From positions 60,444 to 124,443 of the forward strand of contig NZ_JAEHOB010000018.1 of the NCBI RefSeq assembly GCF_016464705.1: a DNA stretch of 64,000 bases. Reading direction: 5' to 3'. Shown piece by piece: positions 45,774-62,679 of the stretch. Numbering within the stretch: position 1 is the first letter of the stretch; the number at the start of each line of letters is the position of its first letter. The DNA comes from Qaidamihabitans albus (GTDB lineage: Bacteria; Actinomycetota; Actinomycetes; Mycobacteriales; Pseudonocardiaceae). A model generated the notes under the pieces. It ran no database searches and was not told where the DNA came from. It was given only the letters and a program-made list of their open reading frames with translations. The position numbers and the translations under genes were made by a program.

Positions 45774-45785
45774 TTTGGTATACAA
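45774..45785. promoter_or_regulatory. GntR operator-like site upstream of transporter genes
   Basis: TTTGGTATACAA, related to the sites at 48246, 54374 and 54449, 26 bases before the small-partner ATG. Confidence 0.55.
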
Positions 45786-45811
45786 CTTGCCTCCTGGAAG
45801 GGGCAGTACCC

Positions 45812-46009
45812 ATGGAGAAGCCCATGGAGAACCGGCGGGCGCGATGGCTGCTGACGTTGGTACTGGTACTCATACTGGCGAGCTTCGCTGTTCCGTACAC
45901 GCTCCTCAGCGACGTGGACGCGTGGTACGGCAGCATGCTCTTCTGGATCCTGTCCACGGCAGTCGTGATCGCGATCAACGCAATCGTCAGCTCCACATGG
46001 GAGGACTGA
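45812..46009 (+). CDS. Small membrane partner of the SSS transporter
   Basis: 65 residues, two transmembrane helices (about 12-32 and 38-60). Short two-helix proteins directly before sodium:solute symporters (YhdT/DUF3311-like) are common partners; which family this belongs to I cannot settle. GGAAGGGG precedes the ATG. It lies 4 bases before the symporter start. Confidence 0.65.
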   Translation: MEKPMENRRARWLLTLVLVLILASFAVPYTLLSDVDAWYGSMLFWILSTAVVIAINAIVSSTWED

Positions 46010-46013
46010 GATC

Positions 46014-47495
46014 GTGGACGCATCGATTATCTGGTGGGGCATCGCGATCTATGTCGTCTTCGCGGGCATAACGGCCTACCTGTCGCGGCGCGGTGGCCAG
46101 AAGAGCATGTCGGGTTACTTCCTCGGCAGCCGCAACATGGGTGGCCTGGTGTCCGCGATGAGCTACAGCGCGACCACCTACAGCGCCTTCATGCTGATCG
46201 GCCTTGCCGGGCTGGCGTACCAGGGCGGAGTCGGCGCGCTCGGCTTCGAACTGATCTACCTGTGCGGCGTGACACTCGTGGTCGTCTTCGGTCCCCGATT
46301 CTGGTTGGCGGGCAAGAAGTTCGGCTACATCACGCCGTCCGAGCTCCTCGGCGGGCGGTACGGCAGCAGGTCCGTCGCCGTCGTGACCGCGGTGGCGAGC
46401 TGCCTCTTCCTCATTCCCTATGCGGCGGTCCAGCTGGCCGGGGTCGGCTACCTTCTGCAGGGCATGACCGACGGCGCGGTCTCGTTCACGTCCGGCACGA
46501 TCCTGGCAACGGTGCTGGCCATCGTGTTCTCCCTGGTCGCCGGCCTGCGGTCGGTCGCATGGACCGACTCGCTGCAGGCGATCGTCATGGTGATCACCGC
46601 GAGCGCGGTCGTGCTGATCGTGATCGACCGGCTGGGCGGCTTCGCCTCCTTCTTCGGCACCCTCCAACGTGATCATCCCGGGATGCTGAGCGTGCCCGGC
46701 AACGGATTCTTCAGCTTCAGCACGTTCCTCGGGCTGACACTGCCGTGGATCTTCTTCAGCATCTCGAACCCGCAGGTGAGCCAACGTCTCTTCACCCCTC
46801 GCTCGATGGTCGACCTGCGCAGGATGTTGCTGGGTTTCATGGTTTTCGGCTTCATCTACACGCTCGTCGCCATCACGTGGGGCTTCGCCGCGGCGATCCG
46901 CTTCCCCGGCCTGGAGACCGGGGACCTGGCGACGCCGATGTTGCTGTCGTCCGGCCTCGTGCCGACCGCTCTTGGCCTGCTGGTGATGATCGGCATCATC
47001 GCCGCGGCGGTGTCGACGATCGACTCGATCCTGTTGACGTTGTCGTCGCTCATCACCCGCGACGTGTACGCCGTCGCGAAGAAGGACGCCGGTGAGAAGA
47101 GCCAGCTGGCGCTGGGCAAGCTGGTGATCCCGGTGATCGCGATCCTGGCGTACATGTTCGCCCAGCTCCAGCTCGACCTGATCGCGATCCTGTCGGTCTC
47201 GGCATCGGCGGGCTTGCTCGTCATGGTGCCGGCCATCGTCGGCACGTTCTTCTGGCGGCGGGGCACCGCGGCCGGTGCCCTCAGCAGCGTGATCGCCGGC
47301 GGATCCCTTGTGGTCTACCTGGAGTCCACGTCGACGACGTGGCTCGGGCAGGGCACGGGTGTGTGGGCGCTGCTGGTGTCACTGACCCTGTTCGTCGGCG
47401 TCAGCCTGCTCACGACCGCCCCCACGGAGAAGGCCGAACAGTTCGTGAGCCTCGCCAGGCAGCACGCGAAGAAGGGCCACATCCCCACCTCGTGA
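46014..47495 (+). CDS. Sodium:solute symporter (SSS family)
   Basis: 493 residues, 13 hydrophobic helices. SSS landmarks are SGYFLGSRNMGGLVSAMSYSATTYSAFMLIG, PYAAVQLAGVGYLL, GLRSVAWTDSLQAIVM and IIAAAVSTIDSILLTLSSLITRDVY (the Na+ site Ser-rich motif). It resembles PanF/ActP-like carboxylate carriers. GGGAGGAC precedes the GTG. Preceded by a GntR-box-like site and adjacent to the catabolic cluster, it probably imports that pathway's substrate. The stop codon lies in the palindromic element. Confidence 0.85.
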   Translation: MDASIIWWGIAIYVVFAGITAYLSRRGGQKSMSGYFLGSRNMGGLVSAMSYSATTYSAFMLIGLAGLAYQGGVGALGFELIYLCGVTLVVVFGPRFWLAGKKFGYITPSELLGGRYGSRSVAVVTAVASCLFLIPYAAVQLAGVGYLLQGMTDGAVSFTSGTILATVLAIVFSLVAGLRSVAWTDSLQAIVMVITASAVVLIVIDRLGGFASFFGTLQRDHPGMLSVPGNGFFSFSTFLGLTLPWIFFSISNPQVSQRLFTPRSMVDLRRMLLGFMVFGFIYTLVAITWGFAAAIRFPGLETGDLATPMLLSSGLVPTALGLLVMIGIIAAAVSTIDSILLTLSSLITRDVYAVAKKDAGEKSQLALGKLVIPVIAILAYMFAQLQLDLIAILSVSASAGLLVMVPAIVGTFFWRRGTAAGALSSVIAGGSLVVYLESTSTTWLGQGTGVWALLVSLTLFVGVSLLTTAPTEKAEQFVSLARQHAKKGHIPTS

Positions 47496-47533
47496 GTGCG
47501 CACGCGAGTTCTAAATCGCGTGCGCACTCACGA
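47490..47533. repeat. Dispersed palindromic element, copy 5
   Basis: Perfect 18-base arms (TCGTGAGTGCGCACGCGA and its complement) around GTTCTAAA. It contains the stop codons of both convergent genes (47493-47495 and 47528-47530). Confidence 0.9.
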
Positions 47534-48160
47534 GCCGACGCCGTGCGCGATCTCCGACTCCAGGTGGGTGGTGCCCAGGATGTGCTTCTCGGTGATCGCG
47601 GCCGCCTGCTCGGTGTCCCCTGCCGCGAGCGCGTCCACCAGCTCGTCGTGCTGTCGCACGGACTCGCGGTGGCTACGGGTCACCAGCGGCCCCGCGGGCA
47701 TCGCCTGCCACAGCAGGCGCATCATCGACAGCAGCATCGGCGACGCCGCGGACTCGTAGATCGTGAAGTGGAACTCCCGGTTGAGCTCGGCGTAGCGCTC
47801 GTCGCCTTCCGGCACGGTCCTCATCTCGTCGTTGAGCCGGCGCAACACCTTCAGCTGCTCCTCACTGATCGCACGCGCCGCGAGCCGCGCGCCGAGCGAT
47901 TCGAGGGCGGCCCGGATCTGTGCGTTGTCCTCCACGACGCCGCTGCGGGACTCCCGGACGGTGGCGCCCCGATGCGGATCGTTGACGACCAGGCCCTCGG
48001 ACTCCAGCCGGCGCAGGGCCTCCCGCACCGGCGTCTGGCTCACGCCGAAGCGTGCCGCCAGATCCCGCTGACGAAGGGGCTCCGCGGGTGCGATCTCTCC
48101 GCTGATGATGAGCTCACGCAACATGGCGCAGACGATGTCGCTCTTCGAGGAGTACTGCAT
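47528..48160 (-). CDS. GntR/FCD-family regulator of the catabolic cluster
   Basis: 210 residues from ATG 48160. MQYSSKSDIVCAMLRELIISGEIAPAEPLRQRDLAARFGVSQTPVREALRRLESEGLV (landmarks LAARFGVSQTPVREAL) is the winged helix, and the FCD domain follows (NREFHFTIYESAASPMLL, HDELVDALAAGD). A longer in-frame start at 48247 overlaps the coxL-type stop (ATGA) and would put the operator inside the gene. It closes the molybdenum-hydroxylase operon and presumably represses it through the TTTGRTATAYCAAA-like sites. Confidence 0.8.
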   Translation of the reverse strand: MQYSSKSDIVCAMLRELIISGEIAPAEPLRQRDLAARFGVSQTPVREALRRLESEGLVVNDPHRGATVRESRSGVVEDNAQIRAALESLGARLAARAISEEQLKVLRRLNDEMRTVPEGDERYAELNREFHFTIYESAASPMLLSMMRLLWQAMPAGPLVTRSHRESVRQHDELVDALAAGDTEQAAAITEKHILGTTHLESEIAHGVGS

Positions 48161-48243
48161 GCCGGAGATTCCGCCGACGGCACTGGAGCGCAAGGCCTGG
48201 TCTCCTCTCACGACTGGCGAGAGCGCATCTCCCGTGGGCGATG

Positions 48244-50580
48244 TCATGATATACCATCCGTGCGGAGCCGATCCCGTACCGTGGCGGGCCGCGCCATGGC
48301 GGCGACCAGGGTCTCGGGGTCGAGCGGGAGCCCGGTCATCGCCGGAAGTCCGATCGCATCGCTCACCGCGCTCGCCAGCGCCGCCCCCGCACCGGTCAGC
48401 CCTCCCTCACCCGCTCCCCGCGCACCGAGTGGGTTCGTGGCCGCGGGCGCGTCCTCGCACAGCACCACGTCGACGGGCGGGATCTCGGACGCGGTCGGCA
48501 TCAGGTAGTCCATGAACGTGGTCGACTGGGGCTGCCCTGACTCGTCGTAGCGGAACTCCTCGAACAGGGCACCGCCGACCCCCTGCGCGACACCTCCGCG
48601 CAACTGACCTTCCACCAGTGCCGGGTTGACGGCCCGGCCCACCTCGTAGGCGACGAGGTAACGCAGCACCGTCACACCGCCGCTGCCGGGGTCGACCTCG
48701 ACCAGGCACACGTGCGCCCCGTAGGGGTAGGTCATGTGGTCGACGCTGAAGCGGTGGCGGGCCGACAGCCCTGCGGGCTCGCCCGCCCCCAGCCACGGGC
48801 TTCCCGGCTGCGCCGCCCGCCAGACCTCGGCGAGGCTGCGGGAGTTCGTGGCAGCGCCGCGGATGCGGACCTCGCCGTCGGCTATCTCGACGTCCTCCGG
48901 CGGCGCCTCGAGCAGCTGCGCCCCGAGCTCGCGGACGCGCTCGGCGACGGCCCGGCCCGCACCGAGCACCGCGCTGCCCGCGACCACCGTCGACCGGCTC
49001 GCCCACGAGCCCGTGCCGTAGGGCTGCAGCATGGTGTCACCGTTGACGACGTCGACCAGGTCGACCGAGACCGTGAACTGGTCGGCCACGACCTGTGCCA
49101 GCACGGTCTCGATGCCCTGCCCCAGCGAGGTGCCACCGGAATGGACGCGGATCCGGCCCGTGCTGGTGATCTCGACGTCCGCGGTGTCGTGCGGGCCGAG
49201 TCCGCTCTTCTCCAGGAACATCGACACGCCCTGGCCGAGCACCCGGCCCTCGGCCCGGCCTCTGGCGAGCAGATCGCGCCAGCCGAGCTCGTCCACTCTG
49301 GACAGTGCGCGATCGAGCAGTCCCACGTAGTCACCGGAGTCCAGGACCACGTCGGTGCCAAGGGTGTGCATCGCGCGGGTGAGCGGCAGCTCCTCGCGCG
49401 CCAGCAGGTTCCGGCGCCGCAGCTCGACCCGGTCCATGCCCAGCTCGGCGGCGACGAGATCGAGCAGCTGCTCCCTGGCCATGGTGCCCTCGAACCTGCC
49501 GGGTGCGCGGTAGGTGCCGCACGGTGTCTTGTTGGTCAACGCCACCCGCACCCGCCCGGCATAGGCGGGGACCCGGTACGGACCGGGCAACATGGCCAGT
49601 GTCAGTTCGGGGACGATGACGCCGTGGGTGCGCACGTAGGCACCGTTGTCGTGGCGCACGTCGTCCCGCAGCCCGAGGATCGTGCCCTCGTCGTCCACCG
49701 CGACCTCGATGCGATGCCGCTGCTCGCGCGAGTGGTTGACCGCCACCAGGTGCTCGGCACGATCCTCGACCCACGACACCGGGCGCCGCAGCCGGCGGGC
49801 CAGCCACGGGATCAGGAAGTCCTCGGGGTAGAACTCGCCGCGGACGCCGAACCCGCCGCCCGCGTCGACCGCGTGCATCCGGATGGTGGCCTCGTCCACG
49901 CCGAGAAGCCCGGCGAGGACCTGGCGGTTGAAGGCCGGGACCTTGGTCGAGCCGAAGATCTCCAGGCAGCCCGTGGCGTGCGTGTAGCCGACGGTCAGCG
50001 CGCGCGGCTCCATCGGCACGGCCGAGTGCCGCTGCACCGCGACGTCCATCCCGATCACGTGGGCTGCGCCTTCGAAGGCGGAGTCCACGTCCCCGTAGCC
50101 GAGGCCGAAGTCCGCGACGATGTCATCGCCCTGCGCGCGGCCGGCGTCGAGCAGCACTTCCAGCTCATCGATCTCGATCTCCACCAGCTCGGCGGCGTCC
50201 TCGGCCACGTACGGGTCCTCTGCCACCACCACGGCGAGCGGCTCCCCCACGTAACGCACCGTGCGGGCGGCGAGCACCGGTTGCAGGCGCTCGCCGAGGT
50301 CGGTTCCCGCGACCTCGAGCCGCACCGGAATGTGCGGGTCACCGGGCAGGTCCTCGGCCGTGACCACGTCGACGACCCCGGGCAGCTCGCGCGCCGCCGC
50401 CGCATCGACGCGGAGCACGGTGCCGTGCGCGATCGGAGAGCGCACCATCCTGGCGTGCACAATGCGCGGGAACTGCACGTCGGCCCCGAACCGCGCGTCG
50501 CCGGCCAGGAGCCGGTGGTCCTCCTTGCGCGGCACCCGCCTGCCGACCTGCGCGGCACCTGGCCCCGGAGTGTCAGTCAT
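48244..50580 (-). CDS. Molybdenum hydroxylase large subunit, copy A
   Basis: 778 residues of the xanthine-dehydrogenase/CO-dehydrogenase large-subunit family. GRRVPRKEDHRLLAGDARFGADV opens the a/b-hammerhead domain. Mo-pterin motifs include AVDAGGGFGVRG, CGTYRAPGRFEGT, SLGQGIETVLAQVVADQF and GARGAGEGGLTGAG (active-site Glu in the final motif). The CO-dehydrogenase loop AYxCSFR is absent, so it is not a CO oxidiser. It overlaps the FeS-subunit stop by 8 bases. It likely hydroxylates an N-heteroaromatic ring or aldehyde. Confidence 0.88.
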   Translation of the reverse strand: MTDTPGPGAAQVGRRVPRKEDHRLLAGDARFGADVQFPRIVHARMVRSPIAHGTVLRVDAAAARELPGVVDVVTAEDLPGDPHIPVRLEVAGTDLGERLQPVLAARTVRYVGEPLAVVVAEDPYVAEDAAELVEIEIDELEVLLDAGRAQGDDIVADFGLGYGDVDSAFEGAAHVIGMDVAVQRHSAVPMEPRALTVGYTHATGCLEIFGSTKVPAFNRQVLAGLLGVDEATIRMHAVDAGGGFGVRGEFYPEDFLIPWLARRLRRPVSWVEDRAEHLVAVNHSREQRHRIEVAVDDEGTILGLRDDVRHDNGAYVRTHGVIVPELTLAMLPGPYRVPAYAGRVRVALTNKTPCGTYRAPGRFEGTMAREQLLDLVAAELGMDRVELRRRNLLAREELPLTRAMHTLGTDVVLDSGDYVGLLDRALSRVDELGWRDLLARGRAEGRVLGQGVSMFLEKSGLGPHDTADVEITSTGRIRVHSGGTSLGQGIETVLAQVVADQFTVSVDLVDVVNGDTMLQPYGTGSWASRSTVVAGSAVLGAGRAVAERVRELGAQLLEAPPEDVEIADGEVRIRGAATNSRSLAEVWRAAQPGSPWLGAGEPAGLSARHRFSVDHMTYPYGAHVCLVEVDPGSGGVTVLRYLVAYEVGRAVNPALVEGQLRGGVAQGVGGALFEEFRYDESGQPQSTTFMDYLMPTASEIPPVDVVLCEDAPAATNPLGARGAGEGGLTGAGAALASAVSDAIGLPAMTGLPLDPETLVAAMARPATVRDRLRTDGIS
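48246..48257. promoter_or_regulatory. GntR operator-like site at the coxL-type/gntR junction
   Basis: ATGATATACCAT, nearly symmetrical, encodes the last codons of the upstream hydroxylase subunit and lies 86 bases before the preferred gntR start. Confidence 0.5.
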
Positions 50581-51070
50581 GTGCCGTCTTCGCCTCTCCA
50601 CGGCGCTCGGCGGCGACCTCGGTGACGGCCTCGACGATGCCCTGGTAACCCGTGCAGCGGCACAGGTTGGCCGAGACCACTTCGCGCACCTCGTCGGGGT
50701 CGGCCTCGGGGCCGGTGGACAGGTAGGCCTCGGCCAGCATCAGGAACCCCGGCGTGCAGAACCCGCACTGCAGGCCGTGGTGCCTGCTGAACGCCTGCTG
50801 CAGGTCGTTGAGCTCGTCGCCGCGGGCAAGGCCCTCGACGGTACGGACCTCGTGCCCGTCCGCCTGCACCCCGAAGACCAGGCAGGCACGGACCGGTTCA
50901 CCGTCGAGCAGGACGGTGCACGCGCCGCAGATACCGTGCTCGCAGCCCAGGTGCGTGCCGGTGAGGCCGAGATCCTGGCGCAGCGTGTCCGCGAGCGTGC
51001 GGCGTGACTCGAGCACCAGTTCGTGCTCGCTGCCGTTGACGTTCAGGGTGACCAGGTGCTGGTCCTTCAT
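50573..51070 (-). CDS. Molybdenum hydroxylase FeS (small) subunit
   Basis: 165 residues with two [2Fe-2S] sites: CEHGICGAC (Cys43, 48, 51) with RAC (Cys63), and CGFCTPG with CRCTGYQ in the C-terminal helical domain. It transfers electrons from the Mo site to the FAD subunit. It sits between two large-subunit genes and overlaps both (4 and 8 bases), so it may serve both. Confidence 0.93.
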   Translation of the reverse strand: MKDQHLVTLNVNGSEHELVLESRRTLADTLRQDLGLTGTHLGCEHGICGACTVLLDGEPVRACLVFGVQADGHEVRTVEGLARGDELNDLQQAFSRHHGLQCGFCTPGFLMLAEAYLSTGPEADPDEVREVVSANLCRCTGYQGIVEAVTEVAAERRGEAKTAHD

Positions 51071-53463
51071 GCGGTCTCCTCTTGCCGGACGGCGTCGGCC
51101 GCATCGCCGCGCCGCAGTGCTCGCACGACGTCGGCTGGACGAACCGGGATGTGGTCGATCTCCGCGTCGTATTCCCTGAGGGCGTCGTTCACCGCGGCCA
51201 GTACGGCGGCCGGAGCGCCGATGGTGCCTCCCTCACCCATGCCCTTGGCACCGGTCTCGGTCAGGTCGCACGGCGTTTCGATGTGGTGAACGGTCACCGG
51301 CGGGATCTCGCTCGCGGTCGGCACGAGGTAGTCCATGAACGTGCCGGCCAGCGGCTGCCCCTCGGGCGAGTAAATCAGCTCCTCGTACAGCGCGGCGGCG
51401 ATGCCCTGAGCGACCCCACCGCGAACCTGGCCGTCGACCACCGTCGGGTTGACGACGACCCCGCAGTCCTCGACCACCAGGTAGTCGAGGACTCGCGTGC
51501 CACCGGTGCCCCGGTCCACCTCGACGAGTGCGGCGTGCGTGGCGTTGGAGAACATTCCCGGCGGGTCGGTCACACCGCGCGCCTCCAGCAGCCGGTCCTC
51601 GTGCTGGGTGAGCGTGTGCGAACGGAAGTGCACGGTCGCCGCGATCTCGTCGATGGGCAGCCCGGCGTCGCGCACTCCGCGTACCCGCGCGTGCCCGTCG
51701 GCCAGCTCGATGTCGCCGGGACCGGCTTCGAGCAGCTCTGCCGCGACGACCTTGAGCTGATCGGCGAGCCTGCGCGACGCGACCGCCGCGGAGCCACCGC
51801 CGATCACCAGTGACCGGCTCCCCCAGGTGCCCCAACCGAAGCTGGTCAGGTCGGTGTCGCCCTGCCGCAGCTTGACGCGCTCCGGGTGGACTCCGAGCCG
51901 GTCGGCGACGATCTGCGCGAAGGTCGTCTCGTGCCCCTGGCCGTGGCCGCAGGTGCCGCTGGTGACCACGACGTCCCCGGAGGGATCCATCCGGACGTGC
52001 GACACATCGAAGCCCGGCGTCATCTGCATCCTGCGCAGGCCCATCGTCGCCGTGCCGTACGCCGTGCGTTCGGAGAAGTTGACGATCCCGATACCCCGCA
52101 GCGGGCCGTCGCCGGCGTCGCGACGCTCCCACCAGCCCGCGTGCCGCACCTCCGCCGCGCAGCGGTCAAGAGCCTCCACATAGGACCCGAGCTCGTAGGT
52201 GATCCCGTTGGGTCCGGTGTAGGGGAATTCGTGCCTGCCGATGGTGTTGCGGCGCCGGATCTCGACCCGGCCAATGCCCAGCCTCCTGGCCGCCTTGTCC
52301 AGCAACCGTTCCATCACCAGCACGACCTGCGGCCGGGAGACACCCCGGTAGGGAGCGGTCGGTGGCTTGTTCGTGGCGAAACCGCGGGCACGGGCGGCGT
52401 ACCGGCCCACCTTGTAGACGCCGGGCAGCTCGGTCGCCGCCATCAGCGGTTCGACACCACAGCTGAACGGGTACGCCGAGTAGGCGCCGATGTTGCAGAC
52501 GATGTCGGCGTCGACTCCGACGAACCTGCCGTCGGAGTCGAAACCCGCCCGTATGCGGTACTCCTGCTCGTGGCCGTGGAACGCGGCGGTGAGGTTCTCC
52601 TGCCGGTCCTCACTCCAGCGCACCGGCACGCGCAGCATGGCCGCGATCGCGGCGGCGACCACCTCTTCCCGGCCGACGACGCACTTGAGCCCGAAACCAC
52701 CGCCGACGTCGGGAGCGATGACCCGCACCTGCCGTTCCGCGATACCGAGCGCGCTCGCGACGCCCGTCCGCACCTGGTGCGGGACCTGCGTCGAGACTTG
52801 CAGGACGAGCTGCTCGTCGCGGGCCTGCCATTCGGCGAGACACCCGCGGGCCTCGATCGGGGCCGCGGCGACCCGGCCACTGCGAAAGGTCTCCTCCAGG
52901 ACCAGCGGCGCACCGGCGAGCGCGTCACCGAGCAGCTCGTCGGTGAACATCTGCAGGTCCACGAGGACCCCGTCCGGGGCCTCGGCATGCACCGACGTCG
53001 CGGCTCCGGCCAGGTCGGCCAGTGAAAGGACGGGGTCGGTCTCCGCTATCTCGCACCAGACGTGCTCGGCCGCGTCCTCCGCGATGTACCGCGTCTCGGC
53101 CACGACGGCGACGATCGGCTCACCGACGTAGCGCACCCGGTCGTGCGCCAGCAACGGCATGGCCGTCGGCACGAACTCGGCACGTTCGAGCACCGCGGTC
53201 AGCGCCGGATGCCCCAGGTCCTCGGAGGTGATCACGGCGAGGACCCCCGGTACGGACCTCGCGTCCGCAGTGCCGATCTCGGTGATCCGCCCGGCCGCGA
53301 CCGGGCTCCGGACGAACGCGACATGGCAGGCGTGTGGATGCGGCACGTCGTCGACGAACCTGGCGGCGCCGCGCAGCATCCGCGGATCCTCCCGGCGAGG
53401 AAGCCTGGTGCCGACCCAGCTCTTCGCGTCACCCGCGTTCGCTCGCGGTGTACCCGCACTCAT
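51067..53463 (-). CDS. Molybdenum hydroxylase large subunit, copy B
   Basis: 798 residues, same family as copy A but clearly divergent. It has WVGTRLPRREDPRMLRG, APDVGGGFGLKCVVGREE, APYRGVSRPQVVLVMERLLD, GTCGHGQGHETTFAQIVADRLG and GAKGMGEGGTIGAPAAVLAAV (active-site Glu). Motif positions are the same as in copy A, but the loop around the Mo site (PYRGVSRP against TYRAPGRF) differs, which suggests a different substrate or ring position. It overlaps the FAD subunit by 4 bases. Confidence 0.88.
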   Translation of the reverse strand: MSAGTPRANAGDAKSWVGTRLPRREDPRMLRGAARFVDDVPHPHACHVAFVRSPVAAGRITEIGTADARSVPGVLAVITSEDLGHPALTAVLERAEFVPTAMPLLAHDRVRYVGEPIVAVVAETRYIAEDAAEHVWCEIAETDPVLSLADLAGAATSVHAEAPDGVLVDLQMFTDELLGDALAGAPLVLEETFRSGRVAAAPIEARGCLAEWQARDEQLVLQVSTQVPHQVRTGVASALGIAERQVRVIAPDVGGGFGLKCVVGREEVVAAAIAAMLRVPVRWSEDRQENLTAAFHGHEQEYRIRAGFDSDGRFVGVDADIVCNIGAYSAYPFSCGVEPLMAATELPGVYKVGRYAARARGFATNKPPTAPYRGVSRPQVVLVMERLLDKAARRLGIGRVEIRRRNTIGRHEFPYTGPNGITYELGSYVEALDRCAAEVRHAGWWERRDAGDGPLRGIGIVNFSERTAYGTATMGLRRMQMTPGFDVSHVRMDPSGDVVVTSGTCGHGQGHETTFAQIVADRLGVHPERVKLRQGDTDLTSFGWGTWGSRSLVIGGGSAAVASRRLADQLKVVAAELLEAGPGDIELADGHARVRGVRDAGLPIDEIAATVHFRSHTLTQHEDRLLEARGVTDPPGMFSNATHAALVEVDRGTGGTRVLDYLVVEDCGVVVNPTVVDGQVRGGVAQGIAAALYEELIYSPEGQPLAGTFMDYLVPTASEIPPVTVHHIETPCDLTETGAKGMGEGGTIGAPAAVLAAVNDALREYDAEIDHIPVRPADVVRALRRGDAADAVRQEETA

Positions 53464-54373: not shown

Positions 54374-54386
54374 TTGATATACCATA
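54374..54386. promoter_or_regulatory. GntR operator-like site, hydroxylase operon side
   Basis: TTGATATACCATA, 24 bases upstream of the FAD-subunit GTG. Confidence 0.6.
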
Positions 54387-54448: not shown

Positions 54449-54462
54449 TTTGATATACCAAA
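54449..54462. promoter_or_regulatory. GntR operator-like site, SDR operon side
   Basis: TTTGATATACCAAA, the best-conserved copy, 18 bases before the SDR ATG and just ahead of its AAGGAG ribosome site. Confidence 0.65.
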
Positions 54463-54479
54463 TCGAAGGAGATGCTGAG

Positions 54480-55277
54480 ATGGACCTGAACCTCACTGAC
54501 AAGGTCGCGTTCGTAACCGGTGCCAGCAAGGGAATCGGCCGTCAGGTGACGCTCCGCCTCGCCCAGGAGGGATGCGACGTCGTCATCACCGCACGCGGAC
54601 GGGAGGGCCTGGAGCAGGCCGCCGCCGAGATCCAGGCCGAGACCGGCCGCAAGATCATTCCGCTCACCGGCGACATGAGCCGGGACACCGACGTCGAGCG
54701 CTGCGTGCGAACCGCCATCGGCGAGTTCGGCCGGATCGACGTACTGGTCACCTGCGCGGGCAGCTCCCCCGGCGGGCTGCTGGAAGAACTCACCGAGGAA
54801 CAGTGGATGCAGAGCCTGAACCTCAAGTTCCTGGGTTACGTGCGAACGGTACGGGCGGTCGTCCCGCACATGGTGGACGAGGGCAGCGGCTCCATCGTGC
54901 TCGTGGTCGGCAACGACGGGCTCAAGCCGAGCTTCTGGGAGATGACGGCCGGCGCCGCCAACGCCGCCGACCTCAACTTCGCCTCCTCCATCGCGGACCA
55001 GTACGGCCCCAAGGGCGTACGGGTCAACACCGTCAACCCGGGACCGGTGGACACCGACCGCTGGGACGGCCTGGAGAAGGCCTTCGCCCGCGACATGGGT
55101 GTCGACCAGGCCGAGGCCCGCCGCCGCGCCGAGGCTTCCATCCCGCTGGGCCGCATCACGCGGCCGGACGAGGTCGCCGCCCTCGTCGCGTTCCTCGCCT
55201 CGGACGTCGCGGGCAGCGTGCACGGCGCGCACGTGCCCATCGACGGTGCCCAGCGCAAGGCACTGATGGAACGCTGA
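54480..55277 (+). CDS. SDR-family oxidoreductase with altered active site
   Basis: 265 residues. The NAD(P) loop TGASKGIGRQV, the VTCAGSSPGG (NNAG-type) strand and the C-terminal VRVNTVNPGPVDTDRW are typical of classical SDRs. Where YxxxK is expected the chain reads SFWEMTAGAANAADLNF, so neither catalytic Tyr nor Lys is present. It may be a structural or hydratase-like SDR, or use other residues. AAGGAG precedes the ATG. It is the first gene of the divergent catabolic operon. Confidence 0.82.
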   Translation: MDLNLTDKVAFVTGASKGIGRQVTLRLAQEGCDVVITARGREGLEQAAAEIQAETGRKIIPLTGDMSRDTDVERCVRTAIGEFGRIDVLVTCAGSSPGGLLEELTEEQWMQSLNLKFLGYVRTVRAVVPHMVDEGSGSIVLVVGNDGLKPSFWEMTAGAANAADLNFASSIADQYGPKGVRVNTVNPGPVDTDRWDGLEKAFARDMGVDQAEARRRAEASIPLGRITRPDEVAALVAFLASDVAGSVHGAHVPIDGAQRKALMER

Positions 55278-55291
55278 GAGGGAACGCTGAC

Positions 55292-55966
55292 GTGCGCCTC
55301 ACCAACTCCTTCCGCGTCGATCGCCCGGCGGCCGAGGTGTTCGACGCCTTCTCGGACATCGAGCGGGTGGCGGCCTGCATGCCGGGCGCCCGCGTCGTCG
55401 GCCGATCCGCGGAGGACGTCTACGACGGTGAGGTCAAGGTCAGGGTGGGCCCCCTCGCCGTCGCGTACTCCGGGAAGCTGCACGTGCTCGACACCGACCG
55501 CGAGCAGTGGCGGCTGACGATGCGGGCGAAGGGCCGCGAGCAGCGAGGAGCGGGCAACGCCGACGCCTACGTGGTCACCCGGCTCAGCGAGCGCGACGGT
55601 GCGACCGTGGTCGAGATCGAGACCGATCTCGACATCCGCGGGAAGGTCGCGCAGTTCGGCCGCGGCGTGATCGCCGAGACCTCGGACGGCTTCCTGCGAA
55701 CGTTCGCCGCCAACCTGGAGGAGATGCTCGCGCGTGGCGGCGTGGAGGCCGCCGAACCGGCAGCGGCCGCCGCGGGCGCCGAGGACTCCGCTGCGCGACC
55801 GGACGCGACACTGGACGCGTGGCGGCTGCTCATCCGGCCATGGCTGGTGCGCCACGCTCCGTCGGCCGTGACCGTCGCCCTTTCCGGAGCGGCGGCCTAC
55901 CTCGGCGCCAGGACCGGCGCACGGCACGCGCTGCGTTCCGGGAATCGTTCGGGGCACCGCCACTAG
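55292..55966 (+). CDS. coxG: CoxG/SRPBCC-family protein
   Basis: 224 residues. The N-terminal ~145 form a CoxG-type START-like domain (FRVDRPAAEVFDAFSDIERVAACMPGARV, DIRGKVAQFGRGVIAETSDGFLRTFAANLEEML). The C-terminal part ends in a hydrophobic segment (AVTVALSGAAAYLGA) that may anchor it to the membrane. In CO dehydrogenase loci CoxG recruits the enzyme to the membrane; here it presumably does so for the Mo hydroxylase. GAGAGGGAA precedes the GTG, 14 bases after the SDR stop. Confidence 0.85.
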   Translation: MRLTNSFRVDRPAAEVFDAFSDIERVAACMPGARVVGRSAEDVYDGEVKVRVGPLAVAYSGKLHVLDTDREQWRLTMRAKGREQRGAGNADAYVVTRLSERDGATVVEIETDLDIRGKVAQFGRGVIAETSDGFLRTFAANLEEMLARGGVEAAEPAAAAAGAEDSAARPDATLDAWRLLIRPWLVRHAPSAVTVALSGAAAYLGARTGARHALRSGNRSGHRH

Positions 55967-55983
55967 CACGATGGGAGCGACAC

Positions 55984-56868
55984 GTGCCATACGCAGTCAC
56001 CGACGACGACGTCCGGCTCTACTACGAGGAGACCGGGAGCGGCGACACCATCGTCTTCCTCCACGAGTTCGCGGGCGACCACCGTTCCTGGGAACCACAG
56101 GTCCGGCACTTCTCCCGGACCTACCGCTGCCTCGTGTTCTCGGCGCGCGGCTTCCCTCCCTCCGACGTACCGGCCGGGCAGGACTCCTACAGCCAGTCGC
56201 GCGCCGTCTCCGACGTCGCCGCGGTGCTGGACGCCGCCGGGGCCGATCGGGCCTTCCTGGTCGGCAACTCGATGGGCGGCTTCGGTGCGCTGCATTTCGC
56301 GCTCCGGCATCCGGACCGCACCCTCGGCGCGATCGTCGCCGGCTGCGGATACGGTGCCCACCCCGACAAGGAGGAAGGCTTTCGCGCCGAGTCGGAGCGG
56401 ATCGCGGTCGCCTTCGAGGAGGAAGGCTCGGCCGCGATGTCCCGGTGGTACGGCACCGGTCCCGCCCGGGTGCAGTACGAGGCGAAGGACCCGCGCGGCC
56501 ACGCCGAGCACGTTCACGTCCTCGGCGAGCACGACCCGCTCGGCGCGGCGTTGACGATGCGGGGAGTACAGAAGCAGCGGCCCTCGCTGTACGCGATGCG
56601 GGACGAGCTCGCCGCGTGCGAGCCACCGGTCCTCCTTGTCGCGGGCGACGAGGACGACGGCGTTCTCGAGACCGACCTGATGCTCAAGCGCACGATCCCG
56701 CGGTGCGGCCTGGCCGTTCTGCCCAGGTCCGGACATGTCACCAACCTCGAGGAACCGGAACTGTTCAACCGCCTGGCCGAGCGCTTCCTCACGGCGGTCG
56801 AGCACGGCAAGTGGCGGGAACGTGATCCCCGTTCGCTGAGCACCTCGACAACGGGGGCGAGCACATGA
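55984..56868 (+). CDS. Alpha/beta-hydrolase
   Basis: 294 residues, complete triad: nucleophile Ser in VGNSMGGFGA (near 100), acid in AGDEDDGV, and His in PRSGHVTNLEEPELF. The opening YEETGSGDTIVFLHEFAGDHRSW is that of C-C or ester hydrolases in aromatic catabolism. Context (Mo hydroxylase, monooxygenase, CoA enzymes) suggests ring-fission-product or lactam/ester hydrolysis. Its stop overlaps the enoyl-CoA hydratase ATG. Confidence 0.85.
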   Translation: MPYAVTDDDVRLYYEETGSGDTIVFLHEFAGDHRSWEPQVRHFSRTYRCLVFSARGFPPSDVPAGQDSYSQSRAVSDVAAVLDAAGADRAFLVGNSMGGFGALHFALRHPDRTLGAIVAGCGYGAHPDKEEGFRAESERIAVAFEEEGSAAMSRWYGTGPARVQYEAKDPRGHAEHVHVLGEHDPLGAALTMRGVQKQRPSLYAMRDELAACEPPVLLVAGDEDDGVLETDLMLKRTIPRCGLAVLPRSGHVTNLEEPELFNRLAERFLTAVEHGKWRERDPRSLSTSTTGAST

Positions 56869-57557
56869 CACCGGGGGCACCGCTGTCCGTCGAGCGGGCG
56901 GAGCACGGGCTCACCCGGATCCGGTTCGACCGGCCCGGACGCCGCAACGCGATCGACGAGAACACCGTTGCGGCCCTGCTCGCCGAACTCGACCACGACC
57001 CGGCCGGCCCGGTGCTGCTGGGCAGCACGGATCCGGCGATCTTCTGCGCGGGCGCCGACCTCGACATCACCGACGCCGAACGCACACGCTGCAGTGACCT
57101 GCTCTACGAGACCTATCACCGCCTGGTGACCAGGCCGGGACCCGTGATCGCGGTCGTCGAGGGCCCGGCGGTGGGCGGCGGCGCGCAGCTCGCGACAGCC
57201 GCCGACCTGCGGGTCGCCGGACCAGGCTGCCGGTTCCGCTGGGCCGGCCCCGGGCACGGGCTCGCCGTCGGCGCCTGGGTGCTGCCGGACCTCGTCGGCC
57301 GCGGCATCGCGCTCGAACTGACGTTGAGCGGACGCTGGGTCGGCGCCGCCGAGGCACTGCGCATCGGTCTCGTCAACTCCGTGGACGACGAACCCTGGCC
57401 GGTGGCCGAGAAGCTGGTCGCGACCGTGGCCGGGCTCGACGCGGCGGCGGTGGCGGGGGTCAAGTCGATCACGGCGGCCGGCGGCGGCCTGCCGGACCGG
57501 CTCGCGGCCGAGCGGCACCGCAACCTGCGGCAGTGGCCGGGCACGGTGCCCCGATGA
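56865..57557 (+). CDS. Enoyl-CoA hydratase/isomerase family protein
   Basis: 230 residues, short for the family (~255). FDRPGRRNAIDENTVAALL, oxyanion loops IFCAGADLDI and VEGPAVGGGAQLATAADLRVA are present. Of the two catalytic Glu positions the region after GPGHGLAVGAW lacks a clear second Glu, so it may be an isomerase or hydrolase rather than a hydratase. It is coupled on both sides by 4-base overlaps. Confidence 0.82.
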   Translation: MTPGAPLSVERAEHGLTRIRFDRPGRRNAIDENTVAALLAELDHDPAGPVLLGSTDPAIFCAGADLDITDAERTRCSDLLYETYHRLVTRPGPVIAVVEGPAVGGGAQLATAADLRVAGPGCRFRWAGPGHGLAVGAWVLPDLVGRGIALELTLSGRWVGAAEALRIGLVNSVDDEPWPVAEKLVATVAGLDAAAVAGVKSITAAGGGLPDRLAAERHRNLRQWPGTVPR

Positions 57558-60265
57558 ACCGGGCGGACATCGAGTGGGTCGAGTGGAGCGAGGCGGCGTG
57601 GCGGGTGCACGTGCCCGGTGCCGACGAGTCGTTCGCGAGCGGGCTCGGCAACGCCACCCTGCCGGCCCTGGCGCACGCGAGCGCCCGGAAGTTTCCCGAC
57701 CGGATCGCGCTGGACATCGACGGTGAGACCGTCACGCACGGCGAGCTCGACGCCGACGCGGCACGGATCGCCGGCTGGCTTTCCGACCGGATCGGCCCCG
57801 GCGACCGCGTGGTCCTCAGTGGACCGTCCTCGACCGACTTCGTGCGGTGCTACCTCGCAACGCTGCGCGCGGGAGGCGTCGTTGTGCCGGCCAACCCGGC
57901 CGCCACAGCCGCCGAGCTCGGCCACCTGTTCGCCGACTCCTCCGCCGCCCTCGCACTCGTCGCCGACCCGGAGGCCACACCCCCCGGAATCCCGGCGCAG
58001 CCGCTGCACGCCGTGCCACGGGGCCGCCCGCTGCCCGCGACGTCCTCCGGCCCGGACGAGGTGGCGCTGCTCGCCTACACCTCGGGCACGACCGGCAGGC
58101 CGAAAGGGGTGCCGCTGAGCCACCGGCGGTTGCTGACGTCGATCAGAGCCGCGATGGCCGCGTGGCGATGGTCCGCCGACGACGTGCTGGTGCACGCCCT
58201 GCCACTGTTCCATCAGCACGGGCTCGGCGGCGTCCATGCCACGCTCGTCGCCGGGTCCACCGCCCGGCTGCTGTCCCGCTTCACCACCGACGCGCTCGTT
58301 CGGGCGGCACGCGGTGCCACGGTGCTGTTCGCGGTGCCGACGATGTACGAAAGGCTCGTCGACGCGCCCGGTGCCACGGACGTGCTCGGCGCGTTGCGGC
58401 TGTGCGTCTGTGGTTCGGCGCCGCTGAGCGAGGCACTCGCGGCGAGGGTCGCGGCCACCTTCGGCCGGCCGCCCCTCGTCCGCTACGGCACGACCGAGAC
58501 CGGGCTGGACGTGTCCAATCCCTACGGTGCGGCGCGCGCCGACACCGTAGGCCTCCCGCTGCCCGGCGTCCTGTTGCGCCTGGTGGACGACGAGATCCAG
58601 CTGCGGGGTCCGCAGGTGTTCTCCGGGTACTGGAACAACCAGGAGGCGACGGCGGAGGCGTTCACCGCGGACGGCTGGTTTCGCACCGGCGACCTCGGGC
58701 AGATCGATCCAGGGTCGGGGCACCTGGTGATCCGGGGACGCAGCAAGGAGCTGATCATCACCGGCGGCCTCAACGTGTATCCGCGCGAGGTCGAGGTGGC
58801 GCTGGAGCGGCATCCCGCGGTGGCGGAGGCCGCCGTCGCCGGCCTGCCGCACGAGCACTGGGGCGAGCAGGTGACCGCGTGGGTCGTGCTGCGCGAGGCG
58901 GTGCCCCCTGAGGCGCTGATCGAGCACGCTCGATCCCTGCTGGCGCCGTACAAGTGCCCGAAGGTGGTCCTTCCGGTCGCGGCCCTGCCCCGCAACCACA
59001 TGGGCAAGGTGGCCCGGGCCGAGCTGGACACTCCCGCCGGCCGCGCCCTGCGCAGGGCGGAGGAGACCGAGGAGCTGGGCGCGTTCGTCGAGCTGTACCC
59101 GCACGCGCGGGCGCGGCCTGGAACGCCGGTGGCCGTCAAGGACGTGGTGGACGTCGCCGGGCAGATGGTGCGCAGCGGAACGCCCGGGCTGGGCCACCGC
59201 GTCGCCTCCGAGGACTCCGATGCCTGGGCCCGGCTGCGAGCGGCCGGGTACGTCCTCATCGGCCGCACGCGGCTTCCGGAGCTGGCGTGGTCGGTCGTCA
59301 CCCCGGGCTGCCGCAACCCGTGGGATCCCGGCCGGGACGCGGGCGGCTCCAGCGGCGGCTCCGCGGTCGCGGTGGCCACCGGCGTGGTGCCGGTGGCGCT
59401 GGGTACCGACACCGGCGGCTCGATCCGCATACCCGCCGCACTGTGCGGCGTCGCGGGCCTGCGGCCCACCGCAGGCGCCGTCTCCTCGCGTGGCGTGACA
59501 CCGCTCGCGTCGTCGATGGACACCGTCGGGCCGATCGCGCGCACCGCCAGGGAATGCCTGCGCGTGCACGAGGTTCTCGGCGGTGCCGTGCGGCCCGCTC
59601 CCCCGCACGTCACCGGCCTGACGGTCGGCGTGCCGTCCGCGCTGTGGACGGGCCGGATCGACGCCGAGGTGGCGCGCCTGCTCGACGCCGCGTCGGACTC
59701 GCTGCGCGCCACGGGCGCCCGCGTCGTGGAGATCGAGCTCCCGCTCGCCCACCGGCACGCACGCGGCGCCGGCTACACGATCATGCTCGCCGAGTCGGCC
59801 CGGCACTGGTGGGCGGAGCTGCGAGCCTGTCCCGGCGGCGCCGGTGCGGAAGTGGCCGAGCGCCTCCGCGCCGGCAACGATGTGTCCGAAGAGGACTATA
59901 CGGAGGCCCGCGCCAGGGCGGGCGCCGTCCGCGACGAGCTCGACGACGCCTTCACCGAGGTCCACGCGCTGCTGACGCCGACGGTCCCGGTCACCGCCGC
60001 ACCGCTCGGCGCCGGGACCGTACGCCTCGGGGACCGCGACGAGCCCGTGGAGTCGGCCTACTACCGGCTCACCGCGGTGGCGTCGGTCACCGGGCATCCG
60101 GCGCTCACCGTACCGGCGGGGCTCAGCGCTTCCGGGCTGCCGGTAGGCGCCCAGCTCGTCGGCCCACGGAATCAGGAAGCCCTGCTGTGCCTGCTGGGGG
60201 AAGTCATCGAGAACGGCCCCGAAACACTCGCGCTGGCGCGGCGCCGGGAAGGGAGCACGACATGA
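57554..60265 (+). CDS. Acyl-CoA synthetase-amidase fusion protein
   Basis: 903 residues in one uninterrupted frame. Residues ~30-495 are an ANL acyl-CoA synthetase: [11 protein letters not shown] (near 175), [19 protein letters not shown], and the adenylation Lys485 in [13 protein letters not shown]. Residues ~512-900 are an amidase-signature domain with Lys529 ([11 protein letters not shown]), cis-Ser near 599-600 (AGGSSGGSA) and nucleophile Ser near 623 ([11 protein letters not shown]). The ~60-residue helical N-terminus usual in amidases is replaced by the ligase. Both active sites look intact. A bifunctional amide-hydrolysing and CoA-activating enzyme is the natural reading. It overlaps neighbours by 4 bases at each end. 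Confidence 0.85.
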
Positions 60266-61428
60266 CGAAACCCGATCCCCTCGACCTGCTCGGCCTGCGC
60301 GAGGAGCTCGGCGAGGAGGAACGCGCGATCGCCGACACGGTCAGGAGGTTCGTCCGCAAGGAGGTCGGCGAGCACGCGGGCCGGTGGTTCGAGGAGGCGA
60401 CGTTCCCCGCGCACCTCGTTCGCTCGCTCGGCGAGCTGGGGCTGCTCGGGATGCATCTCACCGGCTACGGATGCGCGGGCACGAACGCCGTGGCGTACGG
60501 CCTGGCGTGCCTGGAGCTGGAGGCAGGCGACAGCGGGTTGCGCAGCTTCGTTTCCGTGCAGGGTTCACTGGCGATGTTCCCGATCTGGAAGTACGGCTCC
60601 GAGGCGCAGAAGGAGCGATGGCTGCCGCCGATGGCCCGCGGCGAGGCCATCGGCTGTTTCGGGCTGACCGAGCCCGACTCCGGGTCCGACCCGGCCGGCA
60701 TGCGCACCACCGCCCGGCGCGACGGCTCCGGCTGGGTGCTGAACGGCTCGAAGACCTGGATCACCAACGGCACGATCGCCGACGTCGCCGTGGTCTGGGC
60801 CCGCACGGACGAGGGCGTGCGCGGCTTCCTCGTACCCAGCGGGACACCGGGATTCGCCGCGGCCGAGATCCGGCACAAGATGTCGCTGCGGATGTCGGCC
60901 ACGGCGGAGCTCGTGTTGCGGGACGTGCGGCTGCCGGAAGACGCCGTGCTGCCCGGCGTCACCGGCCTGCGGGGTCCGCTGTCGTGCCTGTCCGAGGCGC
61001 GCTACGGCATCCTGTGGGGAGCGCTGGGTGCCGCCCGGAGCTGCTACGAGACGGCGCTCGCCTATGCTCGCGACCGTGAGCAGTTCGGCGGGCCCATCGG
61101 AGGGTTCCAGCTCACCCAGCAGAAGCTGGTGGGCATGGCGCTGGAACTCAACAAGGGCCTGCTGCTGGCACTGCATCTCGGTCGGCGCAAGGACGACGGC
61201 ACACTGCCACCGGAGCTGGTCAGCTTCGGCAAGCTGAACAACGTGCGGGCCGCGATCGACATCGCGCGCACCTCGCGCACCATCCTGGCCGCCAACGGAA
61301 TCAGCCTCGAGTACCCGGTGATCCGGCATGCCGCCAACCTCGAGTCGGTGCTCACCTACGAAGGCACCGAAGAGATCCACACGCTGGTGCTCGGCAATCT
61401 GCTGACCGGACAGCCCGCCTACCGATGA
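60262..61428 (+). CDS. Glutaryl-CoA dehydrogenase-like acyl-CoA dehydrogenase
   Basis: 388 residues. GcdH-type landmarks: LRSFVSVQGSLAMFPIWKYGS, GCFGLTEPDSGSDPAGM, WITNGTIADVAVVWAR, SEARYGILWGALGAARSC, and the catalytic-Glu segment NLESVLTYEGTEEIHTLVLG. Glutaryl-CoA dehydrogenases oxidise and decarboxylate a C5 dicarboxylyl-CoA to crotonyl-CoA. The conserved Arg of the substrate pocket (SFVSVQ preceded by LR) is in place. It is the last gene of the operon, ATG overlapping the fusion gene's stop. Confidence 0.87.
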   Translation: MTKPDPLDLLGLREELGEEERAIADTVRRFVRKEVGEHAGRWFEEATFPAHLVRSLGELGLLGMHLTGYGCAGTNAVAYGLACLELEAGDSGLRSFVSVQGSLAMFPIWKYGSEAQKERWLPPMARGEAIGCFGLTEPDSGSDPAGMRTTARRDGSGWVLNGSKTWITNGTIADVAVVWARTDEGVRGFLVPSGTPGFAAAEIRHKMSLRMSATAELVLRDVRLPEDAVLPGVTGLRGPLSCLSEARYGILWGALGAARSCYETALAYARDREQFGGPIGGFQLTQQKLVGMALELNKGLLLALHLGRRKDDGTLPPELVSFGKLNNVRAAIDIARTSRTILAANGISLEYPVIRHAANLESVLTYEGTEEIHTLVLGNLLTGQPAYR

Positions 61429-61494
61429 GCGTCACCTCTCGTGAGTGCGTACACGAGTTAGAACACTGTTACGCAGTCACGAGCCGGCGACCCG
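61428..61494. repeat. Dispersed palindromic element, copy 6
   Basis: TCGTGAGTG (61439-61447) and CAGTCACGA (61474-61482, one mismatch) around GTTAGAAC, with partial GTCACC and GGCGACC tags. It holds the stop codon of the convergent monooxygenase. Confidence 0.85.
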
Positions 61495-62679
61495 CTCCAC
61501 GGCCGCGGCGTCGTGCTTGTAGATCCACGCGACGGCGTCGAACGCGAAGTCGGTCGTGCCGGTGGCCATCTGCGCGTCGCGTTCTCGCTGTAACCGCCCG
61601 TCGGGCAGGTGGAAGCGCACCTTGTTGGCCGCCGACAGCGCCTGCAGGCGGGATGTCCGCGGGATGCGCAGCCGCTCGTAGTGACGCAGCGCCCCGGCGA
61701 CGTCCGATCCGGCCTGGGCAAGGCACGCCGCCAGCGTCGCCCCGTCCTCGATCGCCTGCGCGGCCCCCTGGGCCATGAAGGGCAACATCGCGTGACACGC
61801 ATCTCCGAGCAGTGTCGCCCGGCCCGAGGACCAGCGTTCGAGCGGAGCGCGGTCGAACAGCGCCCAGATGAACGTCTCGTCGACCGCCGCCAGGATCTGC
61901 CGGACCTGGGGATGCCAGCCGTCGAACGCGGCCCGCGCATCGGCGATGTCACCGCGGTCGGTCCACGACTCACGCGTCCACGCGTCCTGCTCGACGATCG
62001 CCACGACGTTGACCAGACCGCGGCTGCGGACGAAGTAGTGCACGAAATGCCGGCCCGGCCCCATCCAGAGCTGTGCGGTCGTCTCCAGGGCCAGCTCACG
62101 CAGCCGGTCCGCCGGGACCAGACCGCGATAGGCGACACAGCCGGTGAAATGGGGATCCTCGGGGCCGAACAGCTCGTCGCGCACCACCGAGTGGATACCG
62201 TCGGCGCCCACCAGCACGTCGACCTCGACACTCGTGCCACCCGCGAACCGTGCCTCGATCCGGTCGCCGCGGTCGACCAAGCTCGTCAGCCGGCGCCGGA
62301 GGTGGATCCGCTCGGCCGGCACCGCGGTGGCCAGCGCGTCCAGCAGGTCGGCCCGATGCATCTGGTAATGCGGGAAGCCGAAGGTCGCCTCCAGCGGCTC
62401 GGCCAGCGGCGAGCGCAGCAGCGTGCTGCCGTCGTCCCACCGTCGCTGATGGAATTCACGCGGCTTGACGCCGGTCCTGGCCAGCTCCTCGGCGAGCCCG
62501 AGCCGGTGCAGGACGCGCGAGGCGTTCGGGCTGACCTGAACGCCCGCGCCCACCTCGCCCAGCATCGATGCCCGCTCGAACACGTGCACGTCGAAACCGG
62601 CCCGCAGCAGCGACAGCGCCGCGCTGAGCCCGCCGACGCCCCCGCCGACAACGCCGACCGAGAGGTTCGTGGAAGCCAT
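61477..62679 (-). CDS. FAD-dependent aromatic-ring monooxygenase
   Basis: 400 residues, group A flavoprotein hydroxylase: VGVVGGGVGGLSAALSLLRAGFDVHVFER (GxGxxG), the DG motif VDVLVGADGIHSVVR and the GD motif ATLLGDACHAMLPFMAQGAAQAIEDG. It is close in style to salicylate, 3-hydroxybenzoate and 6-hydroxynicotinate/2,6-dihydroxypyridine hydroxylases. GGAAG is 8 bases from the ATG at 62679. It is convergent with the catabolic operon and fits it functionally as the ring hydroxylase before cleavage. Confidence 0.88.
   Translation of the reverse strand: MASTNLSVGVVGGGVGGLSAALSLLRAGFDVHVFERASMLGEVGAGVQVSPNASRVLHRLGLAEELARTGVKPREFHQRRWDDGSTLLRSPLAEPLEATFGFPHYQMHRADLLDALATAVPAERIHLRRRLTSLVDRGDRIEARFAGGTSVEVDVLVGADGIHSVVRDELFGPEDPHFTGCVAYRGLVPADRLRELALETTAQLWMGPGRHFVHYFVRSRGLVNVVAIVEQDAWTRESWTDRGDIADARAAFDGWHPQVRQILAAVDETFIWALFDRAPLERWSSGRATLLGDACHAMLPFMAQGAAQAIEDGATLAACLAQAGSDVAGALRHYERLRIPRTSRLQALSAANKVRFHLPDGRLQRERDAQMATGTTDFAFDAVAWIYKHDAAAVERVAGS

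Follow-up and report, generated by a model that had tools for sequence, protein, structure and literature searches.

Which compound is degraded by a compact catabolic gene cluster of the actinobacterium Qaidamihabitans albus, and in what order do its enzymes act? The cluster lies in a stretch of 64,000 nucleotides (the window; assembly GCF_016464705.1, contig NZ_JAEHOB010000018.1, positions 60,444 to 124,443), of which its 14 genes span 45812-62679; one of them, a flavin adenine dinucleotide (FAD) monooxygenase, is set apart below, leaving a neighbouring set of 13 predicted pathway genes. An original prediction made from the sequence alone had proposed that an N-heteroaromatic or cyclic amide compound is hydroxylated twice, opened, and only then activated with coenzyme A (CoA); all gene families that it named are present, in the layout it gave. 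Our own reading, to which we give a little less than an even chance, is a GntR-box regulon for the uptake and aerobic breakdown of a pyridine carboxylic acid, most likely nicotinate or another pyridine-3-carboxylate, which would be taken to glutaryl-CoA in the form of its CoA thioester.

Conservation of the gene set and its operator

The original prediction had suggested a search for the same gene order in other actinobacteria; we found related clusters in 27 other genome records, and the window plus these relatives form the 28 loci compared throughout. Among 297 same-family genomes searched with the ligase-amidase fusion protein, 37 matched (own genome included), and stretches were fetched from 24 of the 36 others: 19 carry the cluster, and five (L128-L132) have an amidase region without molybdenum (Mo) genes and were excluded from the comparison. 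The matching genomes left out were G063, G112, G129, G146, G161, G174, G197, G225, G233, G241, G248 and G256. Searches with the atypical short-chain dehydrogenase/reductase (SDR) of the cluster, at E <= 1e-95, gave two of 394 genomes at class level (own included; G319 added), eight of 397 at order level (including own and two already seen; five more added), and one of 401 in another family of the order, probably Mycobacteriaceae (G1247 added); all seven were fetched. A scan of genome contigs with an alignment of the fusion protein yielded 80 loci, mostly unrelated ligase loci, of which nine were compared (L009-L016 and L019), and only L009, from a Nocardiopsis metagenome-assembled genome, carried Mo hydroxylase genes. 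The family search favors the ligase, because the fusion was the bait, whereas the SDR searches are free of that bias. Identity thresholds for each gene were chosen by us after earlier scans. Gene absences are weak in the loci that end at contig ends (G056, G040, G319 and L009) or at the end of the fetched stretch (G255, G691 and G863).

Judging from gene content (Table 1), the conserved core is the GntR regulator, the shared Fe-S and FAD subunits, two Mo hydroxylase large subunits, a CoA-activating enzyme and the atypical SDR. In G1247, a single strand reads ligase-amidase-GcdH-ECH-SDR-hydrolase, where GcdH is the glutaryl-CoA dehydrogenase and ECH a protein of the crotonase (enoyl-CoA hydratase) fold.

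A palindrome, TGRTATAYCA, accompanies these genes. In the window, one copy precedes gntR and two lie in the divergent promoter, a one-mismatch copy precedes the transporter, and none is found outside the cluster; the start at 45774 that the original prediction gave to the region is the start of the one-mismatch, operator-like motif. The relatives contain 61 unique sites in 25 of 27 records, 58 of them no more than 320 bases upstream of a cluster gene. By downstream gene, with one site allowed to serve two genes, the tally is M 20, hydrolase 15, SDR 14, ligase 13, major facilitator superfamily (MFS) carrier 12, ECH 10, GntR 1 and CoxG 1. The control, 79 other ligase loci of 1,445,080 bases in all (71 uncompared ones and eight of the nine compared), contained no copy, nor did the five amidase-only loci. 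Because the gene content recurs in 27 records and the operator occurs at 61 sites versus none in the controls, the cluster is more than a chance assembly. Two relatives, G188 and G242, have no operator site, and a GntR match and L1 are also absent there; G863 and L009 have sites and no GntR gene in the stretch read. We infer that one regulator, presumably GntR, reads the shared box.

Predicted reactions on the ring

The Mo operon combines two different large subunits, L1 and L2, with one Fe-S subunit (S) and one FAD subunit (M). The five genes ending in gntR had been recognized in the original prediction, but the sharing of small subunits by two large ones had been overlooked; S is likely common to both. 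All subunits expected of a xanthine-oxidase-family hydroxylase (L-M-S) are present, as is the catalytic glutamate of the large subunit, seen as the equivalent of Glu748 in L1 and within GMGEGG in L2. The best match of L1 in the PDB is 6-hydroxypseudooxynicotine dehydrogenase (Kdh), which carries out the second hydroxylation of the pyridine of nicotine, and L1 retains its Phe269, Arg383, Trp551 and Glu748 (PMC8305194). L2 is nearest to quinoline 2-oxidoreductase. We therefore predict from these resemblances a 2,6-dihydroxypyridine product, with L2 as the first and L1 as the second alpha-hydroxylase, which supports the earlier view of an N-heteroaromatic substrate hydroxylated twice next to nitrogen. 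Products of this type have been published for isonicotinate in Mycobacterium sp. INA1 and for nicotinate in Bacillus niacini (PMC4548258). Two candidates were set aside: picolinate, with a single alpha position free for hydroxylation, and a furoate-type HmfABC system, which is not known to have two large subunits.

The same enzymes might act on another heteroaromatic acid, e.g., a quinoline, pyrazine or side-chain-bearing pyridine acid, with GcdH working on a homologue. Mo hydroxylases accept many rings, L2 is closest to a quinoline enzyme and loci without L1 exist; however, L1 is nearest to a pyridine enzyme and no ring-cleaving dioxygenase family is among the matches listed for the 14 window proteins, and we consider this explanation rather unlikely. 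A route through 2,5-dihydroxypyridine, as in the nic pathway of Pseudomonas putida, likewise lacks its dioxygenase among the families listed for these 14 proteins; no search for one extended to the remainder of the genome.

For the acid itself, an indication comes from transport. The solute:sodium symporter (SSS) of the window likely imports the carboxylate. An MFS carrier is found in 14 of 28 loci, and for those of three relatives the best-fitting family is that of aromatic acid/H+ symporters, though with scores under its cut-off; this suggests that the substrate is an acid. Neither carrier type was found in the cluster stretch of G1247, where ABC importer genes (two permeases, an ATPase and a binding protein, read by eye) lie at L172 12545-16005.

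The ligase, fused to the amidase in the window and fused or split in relatives, occurs in 24 loci; the remaining four, and no others, have a family III CoA-transferase (PF02515). Among the seven genomes found with the SDR, three have the ligase and the other four the CoA-transferase, with no stretch read containing both. Since neither the Mo genes nor the SDR are lost from these four clusters, activation with CoA is a core function served by two unrelated enzymes. The same replacement argues against activation after ring opening, as originally proposed; activation more likely precedes opening, as far as gene content can tell. An HMG-CoA lyase-like gene (by eye) adjoins CoA-transferase clusters at L167 12578-13552 and L168 13679-14596. 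Citryl-type chemistry was considered for it and rejected: the two genomes have another neighbour in common, and the lyase-like gene was not seen next to the L169 CoA-transferase.

Reduction of the activated ring is predicted for the SDR, by analogy. Gly144, Ala157 and Asn161 replace the serine, tyrosine and lysine of SDR enzymes (alignment with 3oec); they are invariant in 28 aligned SDRs including that of the window, picked by us from the best 120 of 7478 matches, and are kept in 17 rows (16 distinct genes) of another alignment. AerF (6jh7) is the best sequence match, with 172.7 bits versus 124 for the next, and the six top Foldseek matches of an AF2 model (mean predicted local distance difference test score, pLDDT, 78.4) are all AerF chains. 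The protein thus combines an SDR fold without Ser-Tyr-Lys with AerF as its nearest structure. AerF-type enzymes are reported to add hydride in a conjugate manner to a ring C=C bond, and the SDR may be a ring ene-reductase of this kind. The related BacG converts a dihydro to a tetrahydro ring (PMC9147277), and the exact role of AerF is given as open (PMC3252866).

The remaining enzymes would open and trim the ring. The alpha/beta hydrolase has a Ser-Asp-His pattern, read by eye from the alignment, and is predicted by family to open the imide ring. The amidase half (PF01425, 263.5 bits) has AVKDV, GGSSGGS and GTDTGGS in its translation, which we take to hold the lysine, cis-serine and serine of the amidase triad. 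The crotonase-fold protein resembles EchA6. At the positions that we take to be those of the hydratase glutamates, no glutamate is found at or near either one in 16 rows (13 distinct genes): GGG(A/S)QL replaces the first, and the stretch of the second is free of glutamate. A role as enoyl-CoA hydratase was therefore rejected, and decarboxylation is our guess. The CoxG-like protein likely serves assembly or anchoring of the Mo hydroxylases.

Assigned throughout from family and context, the steps would be as follows: (1) uptake by the SSS symporter, or in many relatives by an aromatic-acid-type MFS carrier; (2) hydroxylation by L2-S-M of a carbon adjoining the ring nitrogen; (3) hydroxylation by L1-S-M of the other such carbon, giving a 2,6-dihydroxypyridine carboxylate; (4) formation of the CoA thioester by the ligase half of the fusion; (5) transfer of hydride by the SDR onto a C=C bond of the dioxo tautomer, giving 2,6-dioxopiperidine-3-carboxyl-CoA; (6) opening of the cyclic imide by the alpha/beta hydrolase; (7) release of ammonia by the amidase half; (8) loss of C2 as CO2 from the resulting malonyl-CoA-type thioester, spontaneously or via the crotonase-fold protein; and (9) conversion of glutaryl-CoA to crotonyl-CoA by GcdH. 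What the sequences themselves show is which genes are present, their conservation, the common operator motif and the catalytic residues that are kept or lost.

Predicted exit through glutaryl-CoA and the choice of substrate

GcdH is nearest to solved glutaryl-CoA dehydrogenases and keeps RSxxSVQ and TYEGT, motifs to which we presumptively assign their roles in these enzymes. It directly follows the amidase in the window and in G041, G056, G319 and G1247. The Q. albus genome has a second copy, of the general type and 65% identical, and G041 and G1247 likewise have second copies; in a FastTree tree, the cluster and amidase-paired GcdHs stand apart from general ones. The amidase and GcdH thus support two earlier claims, that an amide is freed as ammonia and that glutaryl-CoA is the exit.

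The position of the carboxyl group is where the alternatives diverge. The exocyclic carbonyl and C3-C6 of a pyridine-3-carboxyl-CoA equal glutaryl-CoA after loss of C2, and nicotinate is therefore favored over isonicotinate; the preference rests on this carbon count, as the 4-carboxyl acid does not give glutaryl-CoA. The main rival is a regulon for isonicotinate (pyridine-4-carboxylate) like that of INA1, leading through citrazinate, citrazyl-CoA and 2,6-dioxopiperidine-4-carboxyl-CoA to a tricarboxylate. After the hydroxylations, INA1 is reported by Kretzer and co-workers (1993) to employ a CoA ligase and to reduce the ring. The Mo pair, the CoA step and the SDR fit this scheme equally well, and INA1 forms its 2,6-dihydroxy-substituted product by such hydroxylations (PMC4548258); on the other hand, it leaves unexplained why GcdH follows the amidase in five of 28 loci, and we hold it to be unlikely, though a serious competitor.

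The order given in the original prediction is improbable. It had the free ring opened to glutaramate by the FAD monooxygenase together with two hydroxylations, after which the fusion protein would deamidate and activate the product, GcdH would form crotonyl-CoA and ECH would hydrate it. The families are indeed as named, amidase and ligase are fused, and GcdH is close to solved glutaryl-CoA dehydrogenases. However, the crotonyl-CoA hydration it assigned to ECH conflicts with the lost catalytic glutamates, the SDR, present in 24 of 28 loci, is left without a clear role, and the FAD monooxygenase is found in the window alone of the 28 loci and has no operator site. We rejected the latter as a pathway member. 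It is convergent, as had been stated, and lies 48 bases past gcdH on the opposite strand; no relative of at least 40% identity occurs in the stretches read of the 27 relatives, and G1247 has a 28% relative. Its best match is tropone 2-monooxygenase (312 bits), to which it is closer than to 6-hydroxynicotinate 3-monooxygenase (251 bits); 2,6-dihydroxypyridine hydroxylase (2vou) reaches only 80 bits. A 45% relative lies in a different neighbourhood of the same-genus genome G020. Overall, the original prediction had the substrate class and a glutarate-type exit, whereas its step order, FAD hydroxylase and hydratase do not hold, and it missed the SDR as probable ring reductase and the shared operator.

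Several observations weigh against a nicotinate-to-glutaryl-CoA pathway. The substrate-binding Glu345 of Kdh (PMC8305194) is glycine in L1, and the altered active site of the SDR sits in a loop (146-159) modelled with pLDDT below 50. The amidase is present in 17 loci and GcdH in only five; in G040 and G073, hydrolase, CoxG, ECH and amidase were not seen in the stretch read. In the tree, the node that ties the GcdHs of G319 and G1247 to that of the window has a support of just 0.765. At E <= 1e-100, no copy besides the cluster GcdH is found in G056 and in G319 (the latter 80% complete), so that it is not necessarily dedicated to the pathway there. Three of the five amidase-only loci (L130-L132) have an amidase-GcdH pair among housekeeping genes, where neither Mo genes nor the related ligase occur, and in the two amidase-only genomes checked, the paired GcdH is the only glutaryl-CoA dehydrogenase; the pair may therefore serve another job, and its link to the pathway is not unique. 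By eye, the L130-L132 neighbourhood contains folate and valyl-tRNA synthetase-like genes. Lastly, no L1 is seen in the stretches read of G1247, G188, G242 and L009 (L009 ends inside L2), so that two hydroxylations are not always required. A version of the pathway with one hydroxylation probably exists, judging by these loci; its ring opening could, speculatively, resemble that of the Eubacterium barkeri/Azorhizobium route with CoA added.

An L1-like protein of G1247 (45-48% identity) sits elsewhere, in a different cluster without operator. A second L1-S-L2-M set (43-60% identical) occupies L174 (G1247:C20) 8027-15553, with no operator and with cyclase-like and nitrilase-like genes adjoining by eye, and probably belongs to a different N-heterocycle cluster.

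Gene layout and relation to known pathways

The spacing of 4-15 bases or overlap claimed earlier holds in general, the gap of 17 bases between CoxG and the hydrolase being slightly above it. The small partner and SSS are 4 bases apart and SDR and CoxG 14; overlaps of 4 bases join M/L2, L2/S, L1/GntR, hydrolase/ECH, ECH/ligase and ligase/GcdH, and S/L1 overlap by 8. Among the matches listed for the window proteins, nothing in NCBIfam exceeds a curated cut-off, and the small partner has no Pfam match. Read by eye, the genes at 42765-44450 (-) and 41130-42653 (-) encode secreted-looking proteins, one cellulase-like and one sugar-dehydrogenase-like, whose C-terminal domains are similar.

Table 1. 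Genes and operator sites of the cluster (window positions), with the number of the 28 loci having each gene.
Feature	Position	Strand	Loci	Evidence and remarks
Operator-like palindrome TGGTATACAA, one mismatch vs TGGTATACCA	45776..45785			Upstream of transporter genes; weaker copy (2 mismatches) before the same pair in L139
Small partner of SSS, 65 aa	45812..46009	+	2	74% identical gene adjoins SSS in G041
SSS-family solute:sodium symporter	46014..47495	+	2	PF00474, 152.6 bits; 85% relative in G041
GntR/FCD regulator	47528..48247	-	24	PF00392, PF07729
Operator site immediately before gntR, within L1 end	48247..48256			Exact TGGTATACCA at corresponding place in L119
Mo hydroxylase large subunit L1, KdhL-like	48244..50580	-	24	7dqx, 647.6 bits
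[2Fe-2S] subunit S	50573..51070	-	27	PF01799, PF00111
Mo hydroxylase large subunit L2, quinoline 2-oxidoreductase-like	51067..53463	-	28	1t3q, 534.5 bits
FAD subunit M of Mo hydroxylases	53460..54350	-	28	PF00941, PF03450
Operator site, divergent promoter, M side	54375..54384			
Operator site, divergent promoter, SDR side	54451..54460			
Atypical SDR, AerF-like	54480..55277	+	24	Sequence and structure matches
CoxG-like protein	55292..55966	+	20	PF06240
Alpha/beta hydrolase	55984..56868	+	24	PF00561, alignment
Crotonase-fold protein (ECH), EchA6-like	56865..57557	+	19	PF00378
Fusion of AMP-forming CoA ligase (residues ~1-495) and amidase (~500-903)	57554..60265	+	24 (ligase), 17 (amidase)	PF00501, PF13193, PF01425
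Glutaryl-CoA dehydrogenase GcdH	60262..61428	+	5	3sf6, 566 bits; second copy in own genome
FAD monooxygenase	61477..62679	-	1	Convergent to gcdH

No textbook locus with the same gene order was found, in agreement with the original prediction. The nicotinate pathway of B. niacini shares the Mo hydroxylations to a 2,6-dihydroxy acid (PMC4548258, PMC9304392); that route continues to 2,3,6-trihydroxypyridine, whereas the recurring features of the present cluster are a CoA step and an AerF-like SDR, and the sole nearby FAD monooxygenase is not conserved. INA1 shares the 2,6-dihydroxy product and, reportedly, the CoA thioester and ring reduction; GcdH would be unexpected for isonicotinate, and the substrate and exit product here are predicted ones. 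We know of no genes for the INA1 pathway and found no INA1 gene sequence in the literature searched. The hxn pathway of Aspergillus nidulans follows the same logic of ring saturation, hydrolytic opening of a cyclic imide and deamidation, but is fungal and uses a reductase related to old yellow enzyme (OYE) and a cyclic imidase, with no CoA thioester mentioned in the available part of the source (PMC9304392). In E. barkeri and Azorhizobium, the ring is also partially saturated before hydrolytic opening; they differ by a single hydroxylation, an enamidase in E. barkeri and, in the same part of that source, no mention of a CoA thioester (PMC9304392). The nicotine pathway of Arthrobacter nicotinovorans has in Kdh the relative of L1, whereas its 2,6-dihydroxypyridine hydroxylase is just the 80-bit match of a monooxygenase not conserved with the cluster. 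AerF and BacG (YwfH) share the SDR fold, AerF being best in sequence and structure, but build cyanobacterial peptide and antibiotic precursors rather than serve catabolism.

A dihydroxypyridine acid bound to CoA may already have been proposed in biochemical work. To our knowledge, CoA-dependent aerobic degradation of pyridine acids is known only from old biochemistry without genes. In literature searched with partial coverage on isonicotinate, citrazinate, nicotinate and pyridinecarboxyl-CoA, no such gene cluster was found, and neither the genes, nor the operator code, nor the assignment of an AerF-like reductase were found described; isonicotinyl-CoA appeared, in the parts of the sources available, only in isoniazid work in animal cells and a tuberculosis review. 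The comparison of nicotinate pathways names, in its available part, no CoA thioester of a pyridine acid (PMC9304392). It is possible, though somewhat doubtful, that the cluster stands for a new aerobic route of pyridine-ring degradation, by dihydroxylation, CoA binding, dearomatisation by an AerF-like SDR, hydrolytic opening and glutaryl-CoA, with one GntR operator code across several actinobacterial families and with a ligase and a CoA-transferase standing in for each other at the entry step.

If true, this would provide genes and a defined operator for the CoA-dependent aerobic degradation of pyridine acids, and would add catabolism to the roles of AerF/BacG-type reductases. With the operator code, the regulon can readily be located in other genomes, and the question of its substrate is directly testable.

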